Below, piece by piece: positions 1 through 55,102 of a stretch of 64,000 nt of DNA (its first letter is position 1; each line of letters opens with the position of its first letter). This DNA comes from Gigantopelta aegis (Eukaryota > Mollusca > Gastropoda > Neomphalida > Peltospiridae), in contig NC_054702.1 of the NCBI RefSeq assembly GCF_016097555.1, positions 79,837,997 to 79,901,996 on the forward strand. The letters run 5' to 3'. The position numbers and the translations under genes are program-made. Below the pieces are notes generated by a model. The model was not told the DNA's origin, did not search any database, and saw nothing but the letters and a program-made list of their open reading frames with translations.

Positions 1-3000
1 CCTAAAGCAACAATCAGTCATAATAAACCTAAAGCAACAGTCAGTCATAATAAACCTAAAGCAACAGTCAGTCATAATAAACCTAAAGCAACAGTCAGTC
101 ATAATAAACTTAAAGCAACAGTCATAATAAACCTAAAGCAACAGTCATAATAAACCTAAAGCAACAGTCATAATAAACTTAAAGCAACAGTCATAATAAA
201 CTTAAAGCAACAGTCAGTCATAATAAACTTAAAGCAACAAGTCAGTCATAATAAACCTAAAGCAACAGTCAGTCATAATAAACCTAAAGCAACAGTCAGT
301 CATAATAAACCTAAAGCAACAGTCAGTCATAATAAACCTAAAGCAACAGTCAGTCATAATAAACCTTAAAGCAACAGTCAGTCATAATAAACCTAAAGCA
401 ACAGTCAGTCATAATAAACCTAAAGCAACAGTCATAATAAACCTAAAGCAACAGTCATAATAAACCTAAAGCAACAGTCAGTCATAATAAACTTAAAGCA
501 ACAGTCAGTCATAATAAACCTAAAGCAACAGTCAGTCATAATAAACTTAAAGCAACAAGTCAGTCATAATAAACCTAAAGCAACAGTCAGTCATAATAAA
601 CCTAAAGCAACAGTCAGTCATAATAAACTTAAAGCAACAGTCAGTCATAATAAACTTAAAGCAACAGTCAGTCATAATAAACATAATTAAAGCAACAGTC
701 AGTCATAATAAACTTAAAGCAACAGTCAGTCATAATAAACCTAAAGCAACAGTCAGTCATAATAAACCTAAAGCAACAGTCAGTCATAATAAACCTAAAG
801 CAACAGTCAGTCATAATAAACCTAAAGCAACAGTCAGTCATAATAAACTTAAAGCAACAGTCAGTCATAATAAACCTAAAACAACAGTCAGTCATAATAA
901 ACCTAAAGCAACAGTCAGTCATAATAAACCTAAAGCAACAGTCAGTCATAATAAACCTAAAGCAACAGTCAGTCATAATAAACCTAAAGCAACAGTCAGT
1001 CATAATAAACCTAAAGCAACAGTCAGTCATAATAAACTTAAAGCAACAGTCAGTCATAATAAACCTAAAGCAACAGTCAGTCATAATAAATAAACATAAT
1101 AAACTAAAGACAGTCAGTCATAATAAACTTAAAGCAACAGTCAGTCATAATAAACTTAAAGCAACAGTCAGTCATAATAAACCTAAAGCAACAGTCAGTC
1201 ATAATAAACCTAAAGCAACAGTCAGTCATAATAAACCTAAAGCAACAGTCAGTCAGTCATAATAAACCTAAAGCAACAGTCAGTCATAATAAACCTAAAG
1301 CAACAGTCAGTCATAATAAACCTAAAGCAACAGTCAGTCATAATAAACCTAAAGCAACAGTCAGTCATAATAAACCTAAAGCAACAGTCAGTCATAATAA
1401 ACCTAAAGCAACAGTCAGTCATAATAAACCTAAAGCAACAGTCAGTCATAATAAACCTAAAGCACCTAAAGCAACAGTCAGTCATAATAAACCTAAAGCA
1501 ACAGTCAGTCATAATAAACCTAAAGCAACAGTCAGTCATAATAAACTTAAAGCAACAGTCAGTCATAATAAACTTAAAGCAACAGTCAGTCATAATAAAC
1601 CTAAAGCAACAGTCAGTCATAATAAACCTATAAATCAACAGTCAGTCATAATAAACCTAAAGCAACAGTCAGTCATAATAAACCTAAAGCAACAGTCAGT
1701 CATAATAAACCTAAAGCAACAGTCAGTCATAATAAACCTAAAGCAACAGTCAGTCATAATAAACCTAAAGCAACAGTCAGTCATAATAAACCTAAAGCAA
1801 CAGTCAGTCATAATAAACCTAAAGCAACAGTCAGTCATAATAAACCTAAAGCAACAGTCAGTCATAATAAACCTTAAGCAACAGTCAGACAGTCAGTCAT
1901 AATAAACTTAAAGCAACAGTCAGTCATAATAAACCTAAAGCAACAGTCAGTCATAATAAACCTATAGCAACAGTCAGTCATAATAAACCTAAAGCAACAG
2001 TCAGTCATAATAAACCTAAAGCAACAGTCAGTCATAATAAACCTAAAGCAACAGTCAGTCAGTCATAATAAACTTAAAGCAACAGTCAGTCATAATAAAC
2101 TTAAATCAACAGTCAGTCATAATAAACCTAAATCAACAGTCAGTCATAATAAACCTAAAGCAACAGTCAGTCATAATAAACTTAAAGCAACAGTCAGTCG
2201 TAATAAACCTAAAGCAACAGTCAGTCATAATAAACCTAAAGCAACAGTCAGTCATAATAAACCTAAAGCAACAGTCAGTCATAATAAACCTAAAGCAACA
2301 GTCAGTCATAATAAACCTAAAGCAACAGTCAGTCATAATAAACCTAAAGCAACAGTCAGTCATAATAAACCTAAAGCAACAGTCAGTCATAATAAACTTA
2401 AAGCAACAGTCAGTCATAATAAACCTAAAGCAACAGTCAGTCATAATAAACCTAAAGACAGTCAGTCATAATAAACTTAAAGCAACAGTCAGTCATAATA
2501 AACCTAAAGCAACAGTCATAATAAACCTAAAGACAGTCAGACATAATAAACTTAAAGCAACAGTCAGTCATAATAAACTTAAAGCAACAGTCAGTCATAA
2601 TAAACCTACAGCAACAGTCAGATTAATAAACCTAAAGCAACAGTCAGTCATAATAAACCTAAAGCAACAAGTCAGTCATAATAAACCTAAAGCAACAGTC
2701 AGTCATAATAAACCTAAAGTAACAGTCAGTCATAATAAACCTAAAGCAACAGTCAGTCAGTCATAATAAACCTAAATCAACAGTCAGTCATAATAAACTT
2801 AAAGCAACAGTCAGTCATAATAAACTTAAATCAACAGTCAGTCATAATAAACCTAAATCAACAGTCAGTCATAATAAACCTAAATCAACAGTCAGTCATA
2901 ATAAACCTAAAGTAACAGTCAGTCATAATAAACCTAAAGCAACAGTCAGTCATAATAAACCTAAAGCAACAGTCAGTCATAATAAACCTAAATCAACAGT

Positions 3001-5806
3001 CAGTCATAATAAACTTAAAGCAACAAGTCAGTCATAATAAACCTAAAGCAACAGTCAGTCATAATAAACCTAAAGCAACAGTCATAATAAACTTAAAGCA
3101 ACAGTCAGTCATAATAAACTTAAAGCAACAGTCAGTCATAATAAACTTAAAGCAACAGTCAGTCATAATAAACCTAAAGCAACAGTCAGTCATAATAAAC
3201 CTAAAGCAACAGTCAGTCATAATAAACCTAAAGCAACAGTCAGTCATAATAAACCTAAAGCAACAGTCAGTCATAATAAACCTAAAGCAACAGTCAGTCA
3301 GTCATAATAAACTTAAAGCAACAGTCAGTCATAATAAACTTAAATCAACAGTCAGTCATAATAAACCTAAATCAACAGTCAGTCATAATAAACCTAAAGC
3401 AACAGTCAGTCATAATAAACTTAAAGCAACAGTCAGTCATAATAAACCTAAAGCAACAGTCATAATAAACCTAAAGACAGTCAGTCATAATAAACTTAAA
3501 GCAACAGTCAGTCATAATAAACTTAAAGCAACAGTCAGTCATAATAAACCTAAAGCAACAGTCAGTCATAATAAACCTAAAGCAACAGTCAGTCATAATA
3601 AACCTAAAGCAACAGTCAGTCATAATAAACCTAAAGCAACAGTCAGTCATAATAAACCTAAAGCAACAGTCAGTCATAATAAACCTAAAGCAACAAGTCA
3701 GTCATAATAAACCTAAAGCAACAGTCAGTCAGTCATAATAAACCTAAATCAACAGTCAGTCATAATAAACTTAAAGCAACAGTCAGTCATAATAAACTTA
3801 AATCAACAGTCAGTCATAATAAACCTAAATCAACAGTCAGTCATAATAAACCTAAATCAACAGTCAGTCATAATAAACCTAAAGCAACAGTCAGTCATAA
3901 TAAACCTAAAGCAACAGTCAGTCATAATAAACCTAAAGCAACAGTCAGTCATAATAAACCTAAATCAACAGTCAGTCATAATAAACTTAAAGCAACAAGT
4001 CAGTCATAATAAACCTAAAGCAACAGTCAGTCATAATAAACCTAAAGCAACAGTCATAATAAACTTAAAGACAGTCAGTCATAATAAACTTAAAGCAACA
4101 GTCAGTCATAATAAACTTAAAGCAACAGTCAGTCATAATAAACCTAAAGCAACAGTCAGTCATAATAAACCTAAAGCAACAGTCATAATAAACTTAAAGA
4201 CAGTCAGTCATAATAAACCTAAAGCAACAGTCAGTCATAATAAACCTAAAGCAACAGTCAGTCAGTCATAATAAACTTAAAGCAACAGTCAGTCATAATA
4301 AACTTAAATCAACAGTCAGTCATAATAAACCTAAATCAACAGTCAGTCATAATAAACCTAAAGCAACAGTCAGTCATAATAAACTTAAAGCAACAGTCAG
4401 TCGTAATAAACCTAAAGCAACAGTCAGTCATAATAAACCTAAAGCAACAGTCAGTCATAATAAACCTAAAGTAACAGTCAGTCATAATAAACCTAAAGCA
4501 ACAGTCAGTCATAATAAACCTAAAGCAACAGTCAGTCATAATAAACCTAAAGCAACAGTCAGTCATAATAAACTTAAAGCAACAGTCAGTCATAATAAAC
4601 TTAAAGCAACAGTCAGTCATAATAAACTTAAAGCAACAGTCAGTCATAATAAACCTAAAGCAACAGTCAGTCATAATAAACCTAAATCAACAGTCAGTCA
4701 TAATAAACTTAAAGCAACAGTCATAATAAACCTAAAGCAACAGTCAGTCATAATAAACCTAAAGCAACAGTCATAATAAACCTAAATCAACAGTCAGTCA
4801 TAATAAACTTAAAGCAACAGTCATAATAAACCTAAATCAACAGTCAGTCATAATAAACCTAAATCAACAGTCAGTCATAATAAACTTAAAGCAACAGTCA
4901 GTCATAATAAACCTAAATCAACAGTCAGTCATAATAAACTTAAAGCAACAGTCAGTCATAATAAACTTAAAGCAACAGTCATAATAAACTTAAAGCAACA
5001 GTCAGTCAGTCATAATAAACCTAAATCAACAGTCAGTCAGTCATAATAAACCTAAATCAACAGTCAGTCATAATAAACTTAAAGCAACAGTCAGTCATAA
5101 TAAACTTAAATCAACAGTCAGTCATAATAAACTTAAATCAACAGTCAGTCATAATAAACCTAAAGTAACAGTCAGTCATAATAAACCTAAAGCAACAGTC
5201 AGTCATAATAAACCTAAAGCAACAGTCAGTCATAATAAACCTAAAGGAACAGTCAGTCATAATAAACCTAAAGCAACAGTCAGTCATAATAAACCTAAAG
5301 CAACAGTCAGTCATAATAAACTTAAAGCAACAGTCAGTCATAATAAACCTAAAGCAACAGTCAGTCATAATAAACCTAAAGCAACAGTCAGTCATAATAA
5401 ACCTAAAGTAACAGTCAGTCATAATAAACCTAAAGCAACAGTCATAATAAACCTAAAGCAACAGTCAGTCATAATAAACCTAAAGCAACAGTCAGTCATA
5501 ATAAACTTAAAGCAACAGTCATAATAAACCTAAAGCAACAGTCAGTCATAACAAACCTAAAGCAACAAGTCAGTCATAATAAACCTAAAGCAAGTCAGTC
5601 ATAATAAACCTAAAGTAACAGTCAGTCATAATAAACTTAAAGCAACAGTCATAATAAACCTAAAGCAACAGTCAGTCATAATAAACCTAAAGTAACAGTC
5701 AGTCAGTCATAATAAACCTAAAGCAACAGTCAGTCATAATAAACCTAAAGACAGTCAGTCATAATAAACTTAAAGCAACAGTCAGTCATAATAAACCTAA
5801 ATCAAC
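1..5806. repeat. 27-bp satellite array in SIPA1L intron 3
   Basis: A tandem array of a 27-bp unit built around GTCAGTCATAATAAA starts before base 1 and runs to about 5806, roughly 215 units. Common variants are CCT/CTT and AGC/ATC substitutions, 23-bp units with one GTCA instead of two, and 31-bp units with three, so the GTCA doublet slips. On the minus strand the 27-bp phase keeps a frame open (9-residue MTDCCFRFI repeats), but the 23- and 31-bp units break it, so I read it as non-coding. It lies downstream of SIPA1L exon 3 on that gene's sense strand and before any exon 4, so it is intronic. AATAAA occurs in each unit only on the plus strand, antisense to SIPA1L. Confidence 0.97.
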
Positions 5807-13620: not shown

Positions 13621-14717
13621 TTTACATGCAGTATGAAGAAATAGATAGTTATAGTCAAACCTGTCCACAAATTCAGATGTAAATGAAATAGGAATATATC
13701 TAAATGTCCTTTATATAAACAGATGATTGTTATTCAACTTTTGACTGGATTAATGATTAAAAGAAATATATTTATTAAAATTTTGCTCATAAAATGAAGT
13801 TTCTCTCCAAAGGTCATGGATATTAAATTTGTGCTTGCTGATAATCCTAAATTATATATAATTACTGGGAATATTTTTAGCAGTTTTGACAATGTCAACT
13901 GTAATATGATGCAGTGTTATCTAATTTAACAGCATAACAAGACAGATAAATAGGTTATAGCATGACTAAATCTTGTCAAACAAAATGTAGTATTTAATTA
14001 CGGACAACAAAAGTACAAAAAGCAAGCTAAATGTAAATTATGTTACCATCAGTTTATTGACAGACCTCCAGAAATATCTTCTGGTAATAAATTTATTGAT
14101 GTTGATGTAAAACTGATATTAGTTTTTATTACACTAGGGCTAGTGTTCAAATTTAAATTTAATATGGACATATGTATTAGTTTAGCTGACCTAATAAAAC
14201 AATTCCCACTAATTTCTGCCAGAAAGATAACTTTATACAAACAATATTATTACTATACTACATGATATGTACTGCAAACGTACCAGTTTTACAGCACATG
14301 TTAGCGTTATTAGTATTTATATGAAGTCATTCTGGCCACAGTTACGGGAATTGTTCTACTGAACATTTAACAGAGTATCACTGGTTCCCTGGTTCCAATA
14401 AAATTGGTGCACCTGTGGAGAGGTGGTTCAATGCAGAGAAGAACAAGAAGAAGAAGGAGGTTCAAAGATACATCAACTCACTAAGTTGTTACATACATTT
14501 AACAAAAAGGGTTGAATTTATGAAGCCTGTTTTTCTTAAACGCAGGTGTTTAAGCGTTGTAAATGTATGAAGTTACACATGTGTAACACATAAAAAGGCT
14601 TTGTAAATTTAGAAAATTTGTTTCCAATTTTCATTATTATTCATACTTACCTAGTACTAGCATAACAACTATGCCCTTAGGTGTTTTAAAACAATTTTAC
14701 AGTATGCATTAACTTAC
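13621..14717. other. SIPA1L intron 1, donor-proximal part
   Basis: AT-rich sequence between the repeat copy and the exon 1 donor. No exon, RNA gene or repeat boundary is seen beyond the donor GTAAGT at 14717-14712. Confidence 0.55.
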
Positions 14718-16182
14718 CGAAACCATTGAAGAAATGTCTGTAATAAAATGCACCATGATCCACATACTCTATGATATGACCTCGATGAGAGACCTGGGGT
14801 GGCAGCACCTTGCCGGAGGGAGACTGAGAAGAGTCTAGCACAGCCACTCCACAACACTGTGGATGGCGGTACCAGGAAATTGCACTGTGAGTTTGGCTGC
14901 TGTGCTTTGTATCCCCAGCAGAATGAACACGTTTATGAGCCGTCTGCTTAGTCAAACTTATTATCCTTTCCTCTTCTCCGCCAATTTCATTGCGGAAGAA
15001 GGGGCAACTGAGCACCAAATTGTTTGATTTACCATCACCATCGTCTGTTCCAGCAATAATGTCTGGATCGTCCTTATCACCTGCATAGCTATTGCGACTA
15101 AACGAGGCAGCTGATGCCCCTGTTGTTGTGTTACGTACAATCCCTGAATTGTGCTTGGTTCTGATCACTTCATTCAAATTCACACCTACACTTTGACAGT
15201 CAAAATGAGCAAACGCTTTCCGTCTACACCGTTCTTCTCCCTTGCCATCATCAAATCTGTCTTCCAACTTGGAAGTAATATCAGCATCTGGCTTGCTGCC
15301 ACGCAACTTCTTTAAAATTCCAGCACTCGTTTCTCCAGTTATTGACTTAGCTCGAGTTTTTCTGTCTTTCTGCTTGGATTTATTTTTAACTTTTGGACTG
15401 TCTAAATTTTCATCATTTTCCTTATCAAAGTTTACACTACCATTTGAAACCTTATCTCTTTCCTTATTTAGGTCTGCTCTACCTCGAAGCAGTTCATGGA
15501 GTTTTAATGGTGCAGGGCTCCTCTGATCAAGGTTCTGATTTTGAAAATCCTTCAACATTGCAAAAAAATCATTGTCTCCACTAGTGCCAAGGAGATCCAG
15601 TGACGACGTACTACCATATTCCCGATGCATACTTCCAGTAGGTGGCAAATCATCCTCTATTAACTCAAGGCTGTCCATTTCTGCATTGCTATTACTACGA
15701 TATAATGCTTTGGAAGTACCTTGTGGTGATGATTTAACAAATGATTTTGACATATGAGCAGGCTTTGGAGGAGGCACAGGCTTTGGACGATTTTTGTTTT
15801 CCACAGAATAAGTGTGAGTTCTTGCCCTACCAGGTTGAGAATGAAGACCATGGAAAGTCCTTGATCGACTCCGACCAGTCCCAATGCGTTCACTCATAGA
15901 ACTACGCATGTCTATAATTCCAGCCTTCATTTTTGCACGATAGAAATTACTTGATGAAGCAGGTTCCACACCAGAATGGAGGTCATCTTCGGTGGACATA
16001 TAGTTGTAACCACCATAGTTTTTACCTGGGACATACTCCCCAGGATGTGGATTATCTGCTTTGCTACCAGAATACACAGGTGCCATCTGACGCTGGTAAT
16101 ACTCCACGGCCTGCATTGCTCGTTGTCTGACCGTTTCAATATCGGAACATCCTTGGGAAAACCCTTTGTTTTGTGTGGCCAT
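14718..16182 (-). CDS. SIPA1L: SIPA1L-family RapGAP, first coding exon
   Basis: This long first coding exon encodes residues 1-488 plus one base. SIPA1L proteins (SPAR and relatives) are Rap GTPase-activating scaffolds at synapses and the actin cortex; that role is family knowledge. Seen here are a basic, Ser-rich N-terminus; a proline-rich RPKPVPPPKP (132-141); REYGSTSSLDLLGTSGD (187-203), a family signature; AFAHFDCQSVGVNLNE (323-338); NTTTGASAASF (351-361); LVLSCPFFRNEIGGE (389-403); CCGVAVL (443-449); and HIIEYVDHGAFYYRHFF (469-485) leading into the RapGAP domain. The ATG at 16182 was chosen because an in-frame TAA lies eight codons upstream. The donor is TTTCG/GTAAGT. A large first coding exon is also typical of vertebrate SIPA1L1. 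The reading frame is intact. Which vertebrate paralogue is closest is not decidable here; invertebrates usually have one. Confidence 0.96.
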
Positions 16183-16826
16183 TGCCACCTCAATTTCTTG
16201 AACTTAAAAGCTGTGCAAGCCTCACTTGCACTACTGCTACATTCCTACATGTAAATTATGCACAAATGCTCAGGTACACCCTACTCCACAGAAAACACTT
16301 GGCAACCCATCTCCTATCACACAGCACATTCCCAAGGGCAAGACAACATCTCCATACATTTTTATTTATTTCGTAATCCACTTGCAAAACAACAGCTTCT
16401 GAGTTCAGCAGCTTTATCTTCCACTAAGAAGCTACAAGTCATTAATTCACAGTGGGAATGATTCACTCATGCTGGCGCATTACATTATCCAGGTATTGTA
16501 TGTAATCAAGCCAGTAACCATAAACACATTAACATCTTGCATTTAATTGAATGCACTGCACTCTGTATGAAGAGCACAATGCTACGTAACCTGTCAGAAA
16601 GTGTTGCATCTTACATGCAGAATGCACTAAATCATTGTCTGCATGTTGAAACAGTTCTGTTGTAGGGAGTCCACCTGTGATGCACTGCCCTCTGATCCAT
16701 TGAGAAACACAGACCGACTTTTGTCTTCAGATCAAGTTACATCTTCTTGGAAATGTGGCATTTGTTTTTGTAGTCTGCACCACCTTGGGATTGGGTGGCT
16801 GCTTCAGTTTAGGAATTTGTATTCAT
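16183..16826 (-). other. SIPA1L: SIPA1L 5' UTR part of the first coding exon (predicted)
   Basis: Upstream of the ATG, the nearest strong acceptor on the minus strand is TTTTTATTTTGCAG at 16840-16827, making 16826 a likely exon start. The leader would then be about 640 nt with several short upstream ORFs; for example, ATG at the first exon base runs only five codons to TAA. The acceptor implies at least one further 5' non-coding exon at higher coordinates. Confidence 0.55.
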
Positions 16827-45954: not shown

Positions 45955-47455
45955 CTGAACAAAAAAAGAAACTTCCGATTTGTACATATAGTATTTGTTG
46001 TGTTAAAGAATTCATTGTGTAATGAAATTATACAGGTAGTATTAGCCTTGAGCTGTATTATCAGGATTCATGAATTTTATCAATTATTTTTGCACTGTTA
46101 ATCGTCGACAACGTGAAATTCAATTTGCACGTGCATGCATGGTTCAACATGTCCCATGTAGTATTCGGTCAATTTGTTTTACTTGTCTTACTGACACTGT
46201 TGTCAAGTGAACGAAAACGCTTCAAAAAAAGAGAAGAAATTAAAGTTTTTTTACATTGTAGCATTTTTAGTATGCCAAGAATACCCAATAATTTACACGA
46301 ACGGGTGATTGGCATGCTTGATGCTGGCATGTTGACAGAAGACGTTGCAAGGCATGTTGGGAGTTCTAGTCGAGCGATACGAAATCTTCGTGTAAGATTT
46401 TGAATGACAGGAAGTATCAACGACTTGCCACGTCGTGGACGTCCGCTTGTTACAACACGTGGTCAAGACCGCTATATCATGAACATGCATTTGCGCAATC
46501 AATTCCAAACTGCCACTGCTACTGCTGCTAACACACCTGGGCTTCATAATAACCAAATCAGTAGGCAAACTGTTCGTAATCGTCTGCGGGTGAACGGTGT
46601 ACATGCACGACGTCTTTACGTCGGATACGTTTTAATGCAACGTCATCGTCTAAATTGGGCACGTGTACACACTCGTTGGATACAGCAACGCTGGAATACC
46701 GTTCTTTTTTCGGATGAATCCAGGTTTTCTTTATAATGTGGTGATGGCAGGGTGCGCGTCTACCGTAGGAGAAATGAACGCTATGCTGACTGTTGTGTTC
46801 TTGAACGAGATCGTTTCGGGGGTGGGGGTTGTGTCATGGTCTGGGCAGCCATTGCCCATGGTTATCGTTCACCACTAGTCGTCATTGATGACAATTTAAA
46901 TGCTCAACGTTACTGCGATGACATTCTTGCTCATCACGTCATTCCTCTGTTCCATAACAACGCCAACATCTCGATTTTTCAGCATGATAATGCCCTCTCA
47001 TACAGCTAGAGACACTGTAAATTTTCTTAGGACAAATAACATTGATTTCATTGATGACTGGCCCGGTAAAAGTCCTGATCTCAACCCCATCGAGCATGTC
47101 TGGGATAGTCTGGACAGACGATTGAGGCGTCGTCCCAACCCATCCGCTAACGTCAACGAACTTCGTCAAGCGCTCATTTAGGAATGGAACAATATTCCAC
47201 AGGCAGAAATAAACACTTTAATCAGTTCTATGCGCCTGCGATGCACTGCCGTGGTCAATTCAAGAGGTGGTCATACCCGTTATTAAGCGGGTGGTGTTTT
47301 TTTAAAACCCCTACCACACTTCCAGTTTCTGTTAACCTATGGCCACGATGAATCATGGAATACTCTTTAAACGCATATATAACAATTATTCCCCCGGTTT
47401 GTTTTCATCAAGTTATGTTCAAGCAAAGTTAGCGGAAGTTTCGTATTTTGTTCAG
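45955..47455 (+). mobile_element. Tc1/mariner element, full length but dead
   Basis: 1501 bp with inverted ends CTGAACAAAAAAAGAAACTT and its counterpart at 47455, each bordered by a TA dinucleotide as expected for Tc1/mariner target duplication. It contains one decayed DD34E transposase gene. The arms agree over about 23 bp apart from two or three changes. Confidence 0.93.
46272..47286 (+). pseudogene. Tc1-type DD34E transposase, pseudogene
   Basis: The ATG at 46272 starts MPRIPNNLHERVIGMLDAGM, a paired-type helix-turn-helix, followed by the GRP motif RRGRPLVTT. The catalytic core is visible: FSDESRF, then HDNA, then SPDLNPIEHVWD, with 34 residues between the second Asp and the Glu as in Tc1. 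The frame is broken by TGA at 46401, TAA at 46734, a roughly 2-nt deletion near 46997, and TAG at 47179; the TGA and TAG fit C-to-T decay. The normal end would be TAA at 47284-47286. The copy cannot make transposase. Confidence 0.93.
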
Positions 47456-49945: not shown

Positions 49946-50739
49946 TTTTACATATTAATCACTAATACACAAATAACAGGAACCCGTCAGCACCCCCTTT
50001 CAATAATGTCCCAGTTAAATACTAAGGTCGACAACACTCACTTTTTGGACCCTTGTTTTGGCTTCGTATACAATAAATAAAACATATCCAACCATTTTTT
50101 TTTTTTATATGATACAACTGACAAAAGGTACTTTTTATTTCATTCATCTTTTAAAACTTAAAATTAATATTTTGTCCAGAATTATATATAAAAAAAAACC
50201 CAACCTGTAAACAGCCGTATCTGCTTGTTATAGAAATTTGACAAGGGTCAAGGTTAGTAGACCATTAATTTTTTATAATTTTAATATGGCGAAGCATTGT
50301 CATAATATAGCTAATTTTGAATTTGAATGACATCACTTTGCATGTCCTTACAATAACCGTAAACTGGGTATACGACGTTTCCTTTTCAAGAATATTGCAA
50401 AAATACAAAATTGCAATAGAATTTTTTTTGTTTGCACATCACTAATGCACCTGAATGTGTTTGAACAAAAGCTTGCGATTAAAAAATTGTAACTTTTACA
50501 CAATATGGATTTCAAGTGAAATTATGGTTAGATATGCTATATTTATTGTATACAAAGCCAAAACAAGGGTGCGAAAAGTGACTGTCGTCAACCGTAACAG
50601 GTTTCTTCCTGTTGTGTGTGTATTAGTGATTAATATGTGAAATGTTTTTTATTAGGGAACTTAAAAATTATTGATAAAGAGCATCATAACTGTCCAAATG
50701 TCTGTCTTGCTCTCTTATGATCAGAGTACTTGGGCTAGA
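49946..50739. mobile_element. Older partial relative of the 50893 foldback element
   Basis: The left segment (ACATATTAATCACTAATACA, later CCCTTGTTTTGGCTTCGTAT) is an inverted match of about 50525-50642. The right end, TGTCCAAATGTCTGTCTTGC then CAGAGTACTTGGGCTA, is a diverged form of the 53764 terminus. The outer left end is not found, so the copy is incomplete or decayed. No RecQ-like sequence is seen inside it. Confidence 0.75.
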
Positions 50740-51633
50740 GAAGGCCCCATCAAAGAACAAATTAGCAGTTTTGTTTTGTTTTGAGATATTTTATTGATAA
50801 AAAAAGAATCAATAGGATTGCACAACAGGCAGAGCCTATATAAATTATATTATAAGTGCTCTCCTAAACAAGATGGACATCAGACAATATTCTAGCCCGA
50901 GTACTCTGACCGTAAGCGAGCTAGACGGACATTTGGACATAAACACGCTCTCATTACAGTCAGAGACCAACCTATGTCTTTTTTTGGCAATTCCTGACTA
51001 CCAAACGGTAGGCAACGAGTCCGCTCTAATACCACAACAATCCTATGTTTGACGTCAAATACCTTTACATCAATCATTTTCGAGTTAAGTGATACAAAAA
51101 AATCCACATATTAATCACTAATACACTTACTACAGAAAGAAACCCGACAGCACCAGGGGTTTCCCTAGAGCGATAAGCCGACACGGCCCGTGCTCCCTTA
51201 GCCAGCCAAGTAAGCGCCTTCATGTCTGGTAAGCGCCTTAACTGCAGGACCGTGTCGGCTTAATTTGTAACATGTATACAAAACAATGGAGCTGTGATTC
51301 GTAACGTCATTCACCACACATTATCACACTTCCATTTGGTATCTCTGCATTTCTTTAGATGTTCACTTTGAGGTCCATTGATCGCACCGTTTTAATTGTC
51401 GGCGGGCTTGTGCTGGTCACGTGGTACAGGTGATCGGCTACTACTAATCCGCCAAATAACTGCTTGTTGTAATAATGTCTGTATGCTTGGGAATTACGCA
51501 TCAAGACAAATCAAAGAAAATACCTATTAATTGAATAAACATCTTTGAAGGTGAAATTCTTGAGTAAAACATGTCACCATTAATCCTGGTATATATTTAC
51601 CATATCGAAACGTAACTACGTTGTTATTTGCTA

Positions 51634-51738
51634 CCCCGCCCTGGAGTCGGTCACTGGCGAAGTCAGAGGCTGAATCCGGGGTGGGCGTGCCTGAACCCTA
51701 GTGGATAGGGGCACGTAAAATGAGTTGCCCGTTGCCCC
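51634..51738 (+). mobile_element. Short GC-rich retroposon with 11-bp target duplication
   Basis: A 105-bp GC-rich insert beginning CCCCGCCCTGGAGTCGGTCA is flanked exactly by GTTATTTGCTA (51623-51633 and 51739-51749). It has no inverted ends, and an 11-bp duplication suits LINE-driven retroposition of a small RNA-like sequence. I do not recognise the parent RNA. Confidence 0.7.
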
Positions 51739-52169
51739 GTTATTTGCTAAAATAAACGGTCACGGATCGACCAAAAAAATGGCTAATAAAATTTGCAAGT
51801 GGCTAAAATTTTCTATCTTCTGATTTGAACAAACGGTTACATAATCTATTCGACACCTCAAACATAATAATACCAAATATTCAATTAGCATAATAGCAAT
51901 CTCGCGACCGGTAACGAGAAACAGTGTTATCCAGAATACAGCGTATGCCTTATGATGTTTGCTAATTTTAATAATCAAGGTTATTAATTTTAACGGCATG
52001 CATTCGACATGTATGACAGCAATGTGACGGCGATTCAATGTCTGGAAGATATGTAACTTGCTATTTTAATTTTGTAAAGTCTTTGAGTAATAAAAACAAA
52101 CCGACAATGCATGTCAATTTGAATACACATGCCAGTTCAGGGCCGAAGACATGTCGGCTATCCCAAGGT

Positions 52170-52310
52170 CTGAGTTCAGCCAGACCGAGCGGAAACAAAA
52201 CGTTCGCTACACTGTTTTGTGCGCTTCACGTTATTAAACCAAATGGACACGATGGACACCAATCAAGTAGTTCGCGAACGTTAGGAAGAACGTTCGTTGG
52301 CTGAACTGAG
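52170..52310. repeat. 141-bp imperfect inverted repeat
   Basis: CTGAGTTCAGCCA at the left faces TGGCTGAACTGAG at the right, and each is followed inward by an AACGTTCG motif. It is probably a small MITE nested in the 51154 element. Confidence 0.6.
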
Positions 52311-53228
52311 GAAAGCTCTCGGCGTAATATACGTCACGCTTCAGAGTCAGCTGACACCCACGTGTCAAGAGATATCGTTGCGGACATGAACAATACGATT
52401 ACACAGGAGTAAATCTTGATGTAAATGTGTAGAAAACAATAGTTGTTTGCATCAATGAATACCTAACTGCAGTTTCGTTATTTCCTTTGTCTTTGTTAAT
52501 TTTGTACCTATGGTCGACAGCACGCACTGAGATCGCGATCGCGGGAAATGTACAATTTATACAAATTGCCGTTAAACGTACACTGAATTAGTTTACAATA
52601 ATCATATTTGTTAGATAATGCTAGATATATATTTGTTAAACTGTGAGATGACATTTAATAAGTTAGCTGGATTTTTAAAAAAAAGTAAAATTTTATTTTA
52701 TTAACGTTTTGGGGGGTTTTTTGGTAGTTTTTTTTATATAAATGGAATATACTGTGAAGTCAGCATTCTTAGCTTAGGTATTTTACAAGCAGAAATCACA
52801 ACAAGCATTTAACACGACGCTGAAATCAACAACAACATGACGCAAATTATGAAGTTGTTGGGGGTGGGGAATTGATGGGTTTTTTAGAAAAAAAGTCCCC
52901 CCCCCCCCCCCCACAACCACACACACACAAAAACAATCCCAACATGATTTGATGGATTGAAGGCAAACACTTAACTGTTTTCAACTCACTACCCCACTTC
53001 TTTTGGCTTGGTTTTTGTGTTATAATGATGCTAAATATGTAAGCGCCTTAAAAAAATCCTGGGGAAAGGCCTGAGCACCCACATTCAGCTACGCTTCGTG
53101 ACACTCCGTCGCAACAATTACAAAGCTCGGCGATCTATTTCGAGACGTAGACCACGTGATCGCGCACTGGGCGATTCCGCCTTGTGCAGCAGTTACAGGG
53201 GCCGTCTCATATCAAGTGAAGTTACAAC

Positions 53229-53408
53229 ATGGAAGAGTTGGCTAATGCCGTTTTGGATGAATTTGGATTTCATTACGTCATTAAACCAAAACAATTACAC
53301 ATTATTGATTCCATTTTGAATTTGAAGGATACACTTGGGGTGTTATCGACAGGATACGGCAAAAGTATGTGCTACATACTGCCTCCTCTTATGAGACGAC
53401 CCCTGTAA
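53229..53408 (+). pseudogene. Captured N-terminal RecQ-like helicase fragment
   Basis: A 59-codon frame from ATG to TAA lies almost wholly in the loop of the foldback element. It begins MEELANAVLDEFGFHYVIKP and continues with KQLHIIDSIL and VLSTGYGKSMCYILPPL. The order FGF, a Lys/Gln where RecQ proteins have R..Q, then a Walker A motif TGxGKS followed by CY.LPPL, is the RecQ-family motif 0 to motif I pattern. A full RecQ core needs several hundred more residues with motifs Ia to VI, so this is a first-exon-sized fragment. The last few codons (MRRPL) are arm sequence, so the frame ends in the transposon. It cannot be an active helicase; whether it is transcribed is unknown. Chance similarity is unlikely because the spacing and Walker A agree. 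Confidence 0.75.
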
Positions 53409-53973
53409 CTGCTGCACAAGGCGGAATCGCCCAGTCTCGAAATAGATCGCCGAGCTTTGTAATTGTTGCGACGGAGTGTCACGAAGCATAGCTGAATGTG
53501 GGTGCTGTCGGGTTTCTTTCTGTAGTATGTGTATTAGTGATTAATATGTGGAATTTTTTTGTATCACTTAACTCGAAAATGATTGATGTAAAGGTATTTG
53601 ACGTCAAACATAGGATTGTTGTGGTATTAGAGCGGGACTCGTTGCCTACCGTTTGGTAGTCAGGAATTGCCAAAAAAAGACATAGGTTGGTCTCTGACTG
53701 TAATGAGAGCGTGTTTATGTCCAAATGTCCGTCTAGCTCTCTTACAGTCAGAGTACTCGGGCTAACAATATTCATAATCATATAGATATAAAACATAATA
53801 ACAATGTGCATTAGCAGTGACCAGTTGCACTAGCTCTACATTATAATGAACTTTTTGCTATATATATAAAAAATGTTACAATTTCTTTCTAAAACATTAA
53901 GTAACACTTGACAAATACCCCTCCCCCATAACATTTTGTTACACATCCTGTGATGATGATCCCCCCACGGAAA

Positions 53974-54098
53974 AATATCCGCCCGGTCCCCCCTTCCCCT
54001 AACCCTAACTCCAACCCTAACCCCAACCCTAGTCCTAACCCCAACCCTAACCCTCAACCCTAACTAAAAATAATAATGGAGGGGACCGGGCGGATATT
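53974..54098. mobile_element. Foldback MITE with telomere-like core
   Basis: Inverted ends AATATCCGCCCGGTCCCC and GGGGACCGGGCGGATATT enclose about 90 bp of irregular CCCTAA / CCCCAA / CCTAAC units, resembling degenerate TTAGGG-type telomere repeats read on the other strand. Confidence 0.85.
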
Positions 54099-54513
54099 AT
54101 ACCCACAGTTGGCCTGTGAGTTGATGCGGATGGACCGTCACACGGTGTGTTTATATTTAATTTTGACACTTAGCAGTGGTCAGCGATTTGCCACCTTGAC
54201 CGCGTCTGCAACTTGGTTTTTTTTAGAACTCTCCATTGTTCATTTACAAGCGTGTTCGTATGTACATACACATTTATGTTTACAAGGCTGCAGTATCTGA
54301 ACTAATCTATATTCACTTACCCAGCAATATACCGTTGTTAATCTTCTAATGAAGCTAGTAGACTGTCAGTATCCAAAATTGTTGGCACTGTCCCACTCGT
54401 TCAACATTGTGAAAAACTACCTGTTTGTCACGTGATCAATCAAGTGACGTCAGCCAACGCGACACCAAACAGAAAATATTCCAGACACGTAGCTGTGTAG
54501 GCCGATAGTCGCC
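54099..54513. other. Intergenic DNA upstream of the tRNA
   Basis: No protein gene is seen. CACGTG at 54429-54434 and the CRE-type palindrome TGACGTCA at 54445-54452 lie close together, about 100 bp before the tRNA. They could belong to a Pol II promoter, but no start site can be read. Confidence 0.35.
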
Positions 54514-54520
54514 TTATATA
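54514..54520 (+). promoter_or_regulatory. TATA-like element upstream of tRNA-Asp
   Basis: TTATATA is centred about 30 bp before the mature tRNA 5' end, a position where invertebrate tRNA genes often carry a TATA-like element helping TFIIIB. The internal A and B boxes remain the main promoter. Confidence 0.5.
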
Positions 54521-54546
54521 GTCTAAATAAGACGATTTCAATCAAG

Positions 54547-54618
54547 TCCTCGGTAGTATAGTGGTCAGTATCCCCGCCTGTCACGCGGGAGACCGGGGTT
54601 CAATTCCCCGCCGGGGAG
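54547..54618 (+). tRNA. tRNA-Asp (anticodon GTC)
   Basis: A 72-nt gene delivering aspartate. The acceptor stem TCCTCGG pairs with CCGGGGA plus a G discriminator. The anticodon stem CCCGC / GCGGG holds the 7-base loop CTGTCAC with anticodon GTC at 54580-54582. The T arm has the invariant GGTTCAATTCC, and the A box TAGTATAGTGG fits the consensus. It differs from vertebrate tRNA-Asp at only a few positions. There is no intron and no encoded CCA. All stems pair (one G-T), so it looks functional rather than a SINE head. Confidence 0.98.
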
Positions 54619-54623
54619 GGCTA

Positions 54624-54633
54624 TTTTTTTTTT
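54624..54633 (+). terminator. Pol III terminator of tRNA-Asp
   Basis: A run of ten T residues starting six bases after the tRNA 3' end, as expected for RNA polymerase III termination. Confidence 0.92.
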
Positions 54634-54862
54634 CTTGTAATAATCCAGAGGTTTTTTAAATAACTATATGTTTAATAAGTATATATCAATATTTGTACCT
54701 TTAAATAGCTTTTGTAAATTGAACATATTCACTGTAGCCCGTTTCATCATTCTAGTTGCCACATATATTGTGGATGAAGTAAGTTCACAAACTTGTGACA
54801 GATTCTTTTGTTCTTTCTACAATAAGGCATATTTTCAATCAATCAAAAAAATATTTTGTTTA

Positions 54863-55102
54863 ACTAATCATTGGCTATTGGATATCAAACCCACTACAAT
54901 TTTTCCATTAATAGCAAGGGATTTTTTTTATATGCACTTCACTACAGACAGGAAAGCACATACAACAGCCTTTGCCCAGTTGTGACGCACTGGTAGGAAT
55001 GAGAAAATACCCAATTAACTGAATGAATGCACCGATGTGGTTTGATCCTGCGATGTAAGCACTTCCGGTGAGCACTCAATCCAATGAGTTAAATCCCACC
55101 CC
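54863..55102 (-). mobile_element. SINE, old copy
   Basis: Minus-oriented: tail-proximal ATTGGCTATTGGATATCAAA, the AGCAAGGGATTTTTTTTATA body, and a tRNA-like part with GGTTTGATCCTGCGATG read on the plus strand. Strongly diverged from the nested copy at 55233. Confidence 0.8.

Follow-up and report, generated by a model that had tools for sequence, protein, structure and literature searches.

A foldback transposon of Gigantopelta aegis and the probable origin of its RecQ-like loop in a larger, helicase-bearing element

We analyzed a 64,000-nucleotide stretch of the Gigantopelta aegis genome (hereafter the window; contig NC_054702.1 of assembly GCF_016097555.1, positions 79,837,997 to 79,901,996 of the forward strand) that contains a foldback transposon with a gene-like loop. 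The element occupies 50893–53764 and is flanked by two exact copies of a 9-bp target-site duplication (TSD), ACAATATTC, at 50884–50892 and 53765–53773. Its left end opens with the terminal sequence TAGCCCGAGTACTCTGA, and the reverse complement closes the right end, where the arm finishes in GAGTACTCGGGCTA; flanks and ends were read directly. Between the two inverted arms lies a 178-bp loop (53212–53389, + strand), delimited by repeat search and by genome-wide copies, in which an ATG-started frame of 59 codons resembles RecQ helicases. An initial annotation of this DNA had proposed each of these features, and each was confirmed. It had also read the loop as an exon captured from a host gene. 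Judging from sequence comparison, we conclude instead that the helicase start is most likely part of the transposon's own gene.

The arms are terminal inverted repeats (TIRs) of approximately 375–400 bp (375–395 bp in the 947-bp family described below). Inverted-repeat search pairs them in two blocks, 50893–51154 with 53501–53764 and 53074–53211 with 53390–53506. A nested insertion of 1,919 bp (51155–53073), its junctions read directly, divides the left arm into an outer part (50893–51154, +) and an inner part (53074–53218, +). The insert ends in AGGGGTTTCCC and GGGGAAAGGCCTG, has no long open reading frame among those listed, and is flanked by a 6-bp duplication, AGCACC, at 51149–51154 and 53074–53079, the second copy of which begins the inner arm. 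Because it is missing from uninterrupted copies of about 947 bp, we consider it foreign to the foldback. With its two pieces joined, the left arm agrees with the right one (53390–53764, −) at 368 of 373 aligned positions; a further 29 positions are gaps, of which 21 form a single stretch absent from the right arm and 6 are the insert's duplication. The 21 bp lie in the inner left arm and lack a counterpart in the right arm of the 947-bp family. The inner left arm closes with seven bases, TCAAGTG, that form the inner end of the 402-bp TIR in the parent and are unpaired in the shortened right arm; this boundary was set by comparing two longer relatives, L098 and L097, introduced below.

The loop frame (53229–53408, +) reads MEELANAVLDEFGFHYVIKPKQLHIIDSILNLKDTLGVLSTGYGKSMCYILPPLMRRPL followed by a stop and includes a RecQ-like Walker-A region. 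Its RecQ-like identity held up in protein search: phmmer against PDB returned RecQ at 4.5e-7 (4tmu) and 2e-6 (1oyw) and WRN at 1.3e-5, and Pfam DEAD matched at 1.5e-5 (25.2 bits, slightly below the cut-off of 26). By translation, the portion from ATG to ...TGYGKSMCYILPPLM (53229–53393, +) is a remnant, 55 of 58 codons, of an exon 1 that is also present in L097 and L098. In both relatives the splice donor GTAAGT comes directly after ...LPPLMKDK, and the loop motif is therefore a first exon, as the initial annotation had supposed. Comparison with L097 shows that the last four codons ahead of the stop, RRPL, derive from the right arm rather than from the helicase, making RRPL-stop (53394–53408, +) an accidental tail.

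The foldback belongs to an abundant family, as had been anticipated. We searched the 1.149-Gb genome (5,216 contigs) with the loop DNA and obtained 661 first-look candidates, of which 40 were scored and were all full length at 98–100% identity; the loop protein gave 712 candidates, and the 150 that were scored were all full length at 93–100%. We compared 50 distinct loop copies, nearly all chosen by loop similarity, after dropping loop matches shorter than 150 nt. Both ends are present in 40 of the 50, and 36 of these 40 carry an identical 9-bp TSD; the remaining four show 1, 2, 5 and 8 mismatches, the last of which can be read as an 8-bp duplication offset by one base. TSD sequences vary from copy to copy. 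This high frequency of identical duplications shows that the foldback is not a chance arrangement, and its assignment to non-autonomous long-TIR or foldback elements with 9-bp TSDs stands. A second loop copy in L008, dropped for its short match, has flanks that differ at 6 of 9 bases.

The uninterrupted foldback is 947 bp long. Thirty-three copies measure 930–960 bp and differ from their consensus by a mean of 0.72%, a low estimate given that copies were chosen by loop similarity. The exact 24-nt terminal sequence occurs at 2,800 genome sites (1,280 + 1,520), compared with 0 for a reversed control. Among 100 ends listed, all on contig C1, there are 23 neighboring facing pairs: 10 span 914–949 bp, 3 span 2,227–2,230 bp, 1 spans 5,545 bp, and 9 span 81–1,446 bp. 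Two copies with longer frames, C4:65628800 and C489:1419, were examined as parents and rejected, being foldback copies with a common insert, presumably SINE-like, at the junction of loop and right arm. L095 and L096 carry the same kind of sequence at that junction; a copy may have moved again after being interrupted, or the junction may be a preferred site.

The loop frame appears better conserved than the arms around it. Across the 33 full-length copies, substitutions per kb per copy number 1.5 in the frame versus 7.8–9.3 in the arms, and four of five distinct changes are synonymous (binomial p 0.019). Such a pattern might mean that the 59-codon frame is maintained by selection because its peptide has a function, perhaps as a dominant-negative fragment of the helicase. 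However, picking copies by loop similarity biases exactly the comparison of loop with arms, the distinct changes number only five, and the frame is broken in 5 of the 33 copies. Because of the bias in copy choice we set selection aside, and we consider it exceedingly improbable.

Longer relatives reveal what adjoins the loop exon. A genome-wide search for an exon-1 pattern whose last base was required to differ from the junction base of the foldback returned 113 sites, against 0 for a control. Of the 100 sites listed, 62 run on into AAAGAT, the L097 sequence; another 28 carry foldback-like AGACGG variants, and the remaining 10 fit neither type. L097 is an AAAGAT site belonging to a 2.23-kb family and consists of left arm, exon 1 (MEEL...LPPLMKDK, with a one-base deletion within the frame in this copy), GTAAGT, an interior of ~1.25 kb, and right arm. 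Its right TIR is symmetric, measures 402 bp, and retains the 21 bp. A search with the L097 interior yielded 5,038 candidates; 40 matches were scored, all at 98–100%, 39 of them full length and one covering positions 7–1252.

L097 also explains the 947-bp form, through a deletion between CCTCCTCT[TATGA]AAGAT and CTTGA[TATGA]GACGG. The TATGA at 53390–53394 (+) in the window would be the resulting joint between exon 1 and the right arm, a 5-bp microhomology apparent when CCTCCTCTTATGAAAGAT is set against CTTGATATGAGACGG in L097.

A still longer relative, L098 on C1, joins this exon to the exons that follow it. A 99% match to the helicase exons of the C6 locus L094 lies at C1:23232793–23233825(−), ~2 kb downstream of an exon-1 site. 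L098 runs from left TIR through exon 1 and intron 1, the latter equal to the interior of the 2.23-kb family, to exons 2–4, so that exon 1 is contiguous with exons 2–4 behind the same left TIR. Exon borders are GT...AG with phases that are consistent as judged by eye, and TIR comparison places the start codon 10 bases inside the 402-bp repeat. Spliced, exons 1–4 read as 208 aa with the helicase motifs of the RecQ family. This reading matches TIGR00614 (RecQ) at 1.1e-44 over positions 6–196 of 470, with 153 bits (the cut-off for the whole protein is 219.8, and the reading covers the N-terminal part alone), and it matches Pfam DEAD at 7.7e-20 and WRN at 4.6e-31.

This unit lies between two exact 24-nt TIR ends that face each other, one at C1:23230826(+) and one at 23236370(−), which define a length of 5,545 bp. 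Its flanks, CTCTGGCAG and CTCTGACAG, match at 8 of 9 duplication bases, and the unit lies within the TIR of a related element. The right part is 98.5% identical to L099, which lies on C8 downstream of a DUF6589 gene; an exon-like opposite-strand frame in the C1 right part and in L099 had no Pfam match. The 947-bp, 2.23-kb and 5,545-bp units have common TIR ends and a common exon 1, and the interiors read are nested subsets. To judge from these alignments, the foldback is a non-autonomous element derived from a TIR transposon by internal deletion.

The helicase exons recur elsewhere beside a second gene. Searching the genome with TIGR00614 gave 43 matches (41 of 666 candidates scored), multi-copy RecQ-like helicases among them; the C-terminal helicase domain (helicase-C) gave 42 (62 of 62 scored) and DUF6589 gave 36 (71 of 71 scored). 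DUF6589 had no match in 14 control genomes. Twelve helicase-C/DUF6589 pairs lie no more than 15 kb apart, at seven loci, where ~0.04 would be expected under random placement, and the two genes are convergent at six of the seven (the exception is C7:1384554). L094 on C6 and L062 on C15 are 84–98% identical through both genes and their introns, the C8 copy is 95–99% identical to L094, and the three copies overall are 84–99% identical, introns included. A search with the exon-2 region produced 27 matches from all 23 candidates, mostly short. That region recurs at C8:79619366–79620086 (93%) and at C15:32737442–32738228 in two pieces, one of which, 32737614–32738228, is 94% identical; on both contigs it directly adjoins the helicase exons and helicase-C, followed by DUF6589.

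Pfam assigned the frames and readings from the C6, C15, C8 and C1 loci to helicase families, DUF6589 (1.9e-9), PHD, and weak unrelated matches, with Helicase_C at 7.4e-16 in the linked C6 copy. No MULE-family match was present among these scanned frames, which come from loci short of a complete autonomous element. The PHD finger of the DUF6589 protein (L094:4017–5231, −) scored 1.6e-4 and 22.1 bits, under the cut-off of 24, and is closest to the ING type (YNG1, PDB 2jmi, 4.6e-13). ING-type PHD fingers read H3K4me3. Because exons 1–4 sit behind the same TIR and exons 2–4 recur in the helicase-PHD-DUF6589 units of C6, C8 and C15, we assign the helicase to the transposon.

This assignment replaces the origin first proposed, in which a Pack-MULE-like element acquired the first exon of a RecQ gene from its host. 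In favor of such a capture are the loop's RecQ motif, the fragment's form in L097 (an exon 1 with a splice donor), and the other RecQ-like genes of the genome, which probably include host ones. Capture of a host exon does not explain why the same exon, followed by exons 2–4, stands behind the same TIR in the C1 element, or why helicase and DUF6589 recur together on three further contigs. Nor does a close host source appear among 30 RecQ loci (L034–L063) drawn from the 43 matches: ranked by E-value, the top tblastn hit to the loop protein is 32.8% identical over 58 residues, and shorter pieces of 12–27 residues reach 44–67%. We reject host-gene capture on the evidence of the C1 element and regard it as very unlikely. 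The initial annotation had recognized that its account would fail if the helicase were part of every autonomous copy; in the copies read the helicase start is indeed the transposon's own, an outcome close to that one.

Other helicase loci and one further candidate were considered as parents. L035, L051 and L058/L063 were rejected as helicase copies of other subfamilies. The group of L058 and L063 comprises ten helicase-C matches at 53–60%, and these two loci share DNA of ~90–99% identity over much of 2 kb; the group may be a further transposon family that carries a helicase. The candidate at C4:37393336 has a DUF6589 match 6.7 kb away, where ~0.06 such neighbors would be expected by chance. 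It was rejected as a full element because its interior is 98% identical to the 2.23-kb family and the orientation is wrong for a single element, and the proximity is taken as chance. Within the C6 helicase copy, a separate repeat (L094:354–1674) accounts for many other L094 matches, commonly at 88–94%.

Several observations weigh against a transposon-borne helicase of this design. None of the copies read combines, in one contiguous stretch, the two TIRs, the complete set of helicase exons and the DUF6589 gene. TIRs were not seen at the C8, C15 and C6 helicase-DUF6589 copies, and the family TIR end (15 nt, ≤2 mismatches) was not found in the 30 RecQ loci or in L094. Among the exon-1 sites listed, which reach into C13 and leave C15 outside, no exact match lies near C8 79.6 Mb, and none of the 100 sites has any of the 42 helicase-C matches closer than 20 kb; the latter result implies that most exon-1 copies are deletion derivatives or that the neighborhoods are incomplete. 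A second, partial exon-2 copy at C8:79616985–79617277 indicates that the C8 locus is rearranged. In the C1 unit, 1,259 of the 5,545 bp (23230891–23232149) are unread, the read part has neither the C-terminal helicase nor the DUF6589 domain, and the TSD has 1 mismatch in 9. Finally, the loop-protein search scored 150 of 712 candidates and taken alone leaves room for a loop-like host exon.

With these points taken into account, we remain confident that the foldback is an internal-deletion derivative of a larger cut-and-paste transposon with its own RecQ-like helicase. The parent would be a DNA transposon with 402-bp TIRs and 9-bp TSDs, carrying the RecQ-like helicase gene at its left end and, farther right, a convergent PHD-finger/DUF6589 gene whose product is a putative transposase. 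Coordinates suggest an estimated length of ~13 kb for a complete parent, and we infer that one element held all of these parts. A first deletion would have kept the TIRs, exon 1 and intron 1, giving the 2.23-kb family. A second, presumably later, at the TATGA microhomology would have joined exon 1 at codon 55 to the right TIR. The arm-loop-arm unit could then have been mobilized in trans by parent proteins to reach hundreds of copies. The series of 5.5 kb, 2.23 kb and 947 bp illustrates how a long-TIR transposon can collapse stepwise into a high-copy foldback. It also corrects a tempting story of host capture, for a gene-like foldback loop can be the stump of a transposon's own helicase.

The arms equal the stretch of parent DNA that immediately precedes the start codon of the helicase, and a read-through transcript would for that reason form a long hairpin. 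The 947-nt strand of L002 antisense to the loop frame has a predicted near-perfect hairpin of −746.6 kcal/mol (z −46 versus 20 shuffles). The foldback might then also silence its parent, with arm transcripts yielding small RNAs against the parent's TIR and 5' region, in the manner in which maize Mu killer acts on MuDR. Yet the inverted repeat by itself accounts for the hairpin, and transposition for the high copy number. We consider such silencing unlikely.

Among known elements, the foldback resembles Drosophila Foldback (FB) elements, which have long inverted arms around a short loop, and Mu killer (Muk), an inverted derivative of a MULE; the likeness is one of form. Two other groups approach the parent by gene content and depart from it by target site: Academ TSDs are 3–4 bp and Kolobok targets TTAA, whereas the family here has varied TSDs of 9 bp. 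According to passages of PMC3627910, Academ transposons encode a RecQ helicase, which makes them, like the parent, DNA transposons with their own RecQ-like helicase. Passages of PMC9587614 likewise describe a RecQ helicase as an accessory protein in KolobokH, reported only from fungi, and in Kolobok-1_CCri, where it lies on the complementary strand; the parent shares this accessory. The subtelomeric RecQ families of fungi, as portrayed in parts of PMC4522978, were also considered and do not fit a TIR element.

By target site and terminal repeats the family agrees with MULEs. These are described in PMC6446971, in the sections consulted, as having TSDs of 8–11 bp, mostly 9, and TIRs of 14–500 bp (26–400 bp in Rehavkus); the family here likewise combines 9-bp TSDs (in 36 of 40 copies) with long TIRs, which measure 402 bp in the 2.23-kb element. 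For Rehavkus, which also has 9-bp duplications, the paper gives a PHD finger, one open reading frame, and a minisatellite before the 3' TIR. It has a PHD finger in common with the DUF6589 protein and differs in its single frame from a parent with helicase and DUF6589 genes. The word helicase is absent from the main text of that paper, and the main text of PMC13359780 contains none of helicase, PHD, RecQ and DUF6589. Pack-MULEs, in the account of the same sections of PMC6446971, are like the foldback in being non-autonomous, with long TIRs and a gene fragment inside, although the fragment here comes from the transposon's own gene and not from a host gene.

The foldback itself is an ordinary non-autonomous derivative; the combination in the parent is less ordinary. 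Literature searches, covering titles, the start of abstracts and passages, with Repbase outside their scope, found no paper describing a 9-bp TSD together with a RecQ-like helicase and an ING-like PHD/DUF6589 protein, none mentioning DUF6589 alone or with RecQ, and none joining RecQ, MULE, foldback and transposon. It is conceivable, though doubtful, that the parent represents an undescribed lineage of animal DNA transposons with 9-bp TSDs, ~400-bp TIRs, a RecQ-like helicase of its own and, convergent to it, a PHD-DUF6589 transposase, in which the ING-like PHD finger could steer insertion to active promoters and the 947-bp hairpins would parasitize and silence the parent. The RecQ-like helicase and DUF6589 genes of this genome are in any case tied to a single repeated unit with relatives that carry 9-bp duplications, and DUF6589, a Pfam family of unknown function, gains a testable role as a transposase.

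Around the element, a relic of a related terminal repeat lies directly to its left (50600–50739, 80–88% identical to the arms), with a further piece at 49950–50002 (82%), and CCCTAA-like repeats lie beside it at 53997–54065. Elsewhere in the genome, two foldback copies, L002 and L006, have telomere-like duplications, GGTTTAGGG and CCCCAACCC. Rfam at gathering scores found nothing in 50000–55000 beyond one tRNA, a tRNA-Asp (GTC) at 54547–54618 (60.4 bits). Elsewhere in the window are a 505-aa open frame at 14686–16203 (−), a frame at 46404–46736 (+) that we take to resemble a Tc1/mariner transposase, and, at 1–5806, a 27-bp minisatellite of about 215 copies with 92% matches and a strong strand skew.

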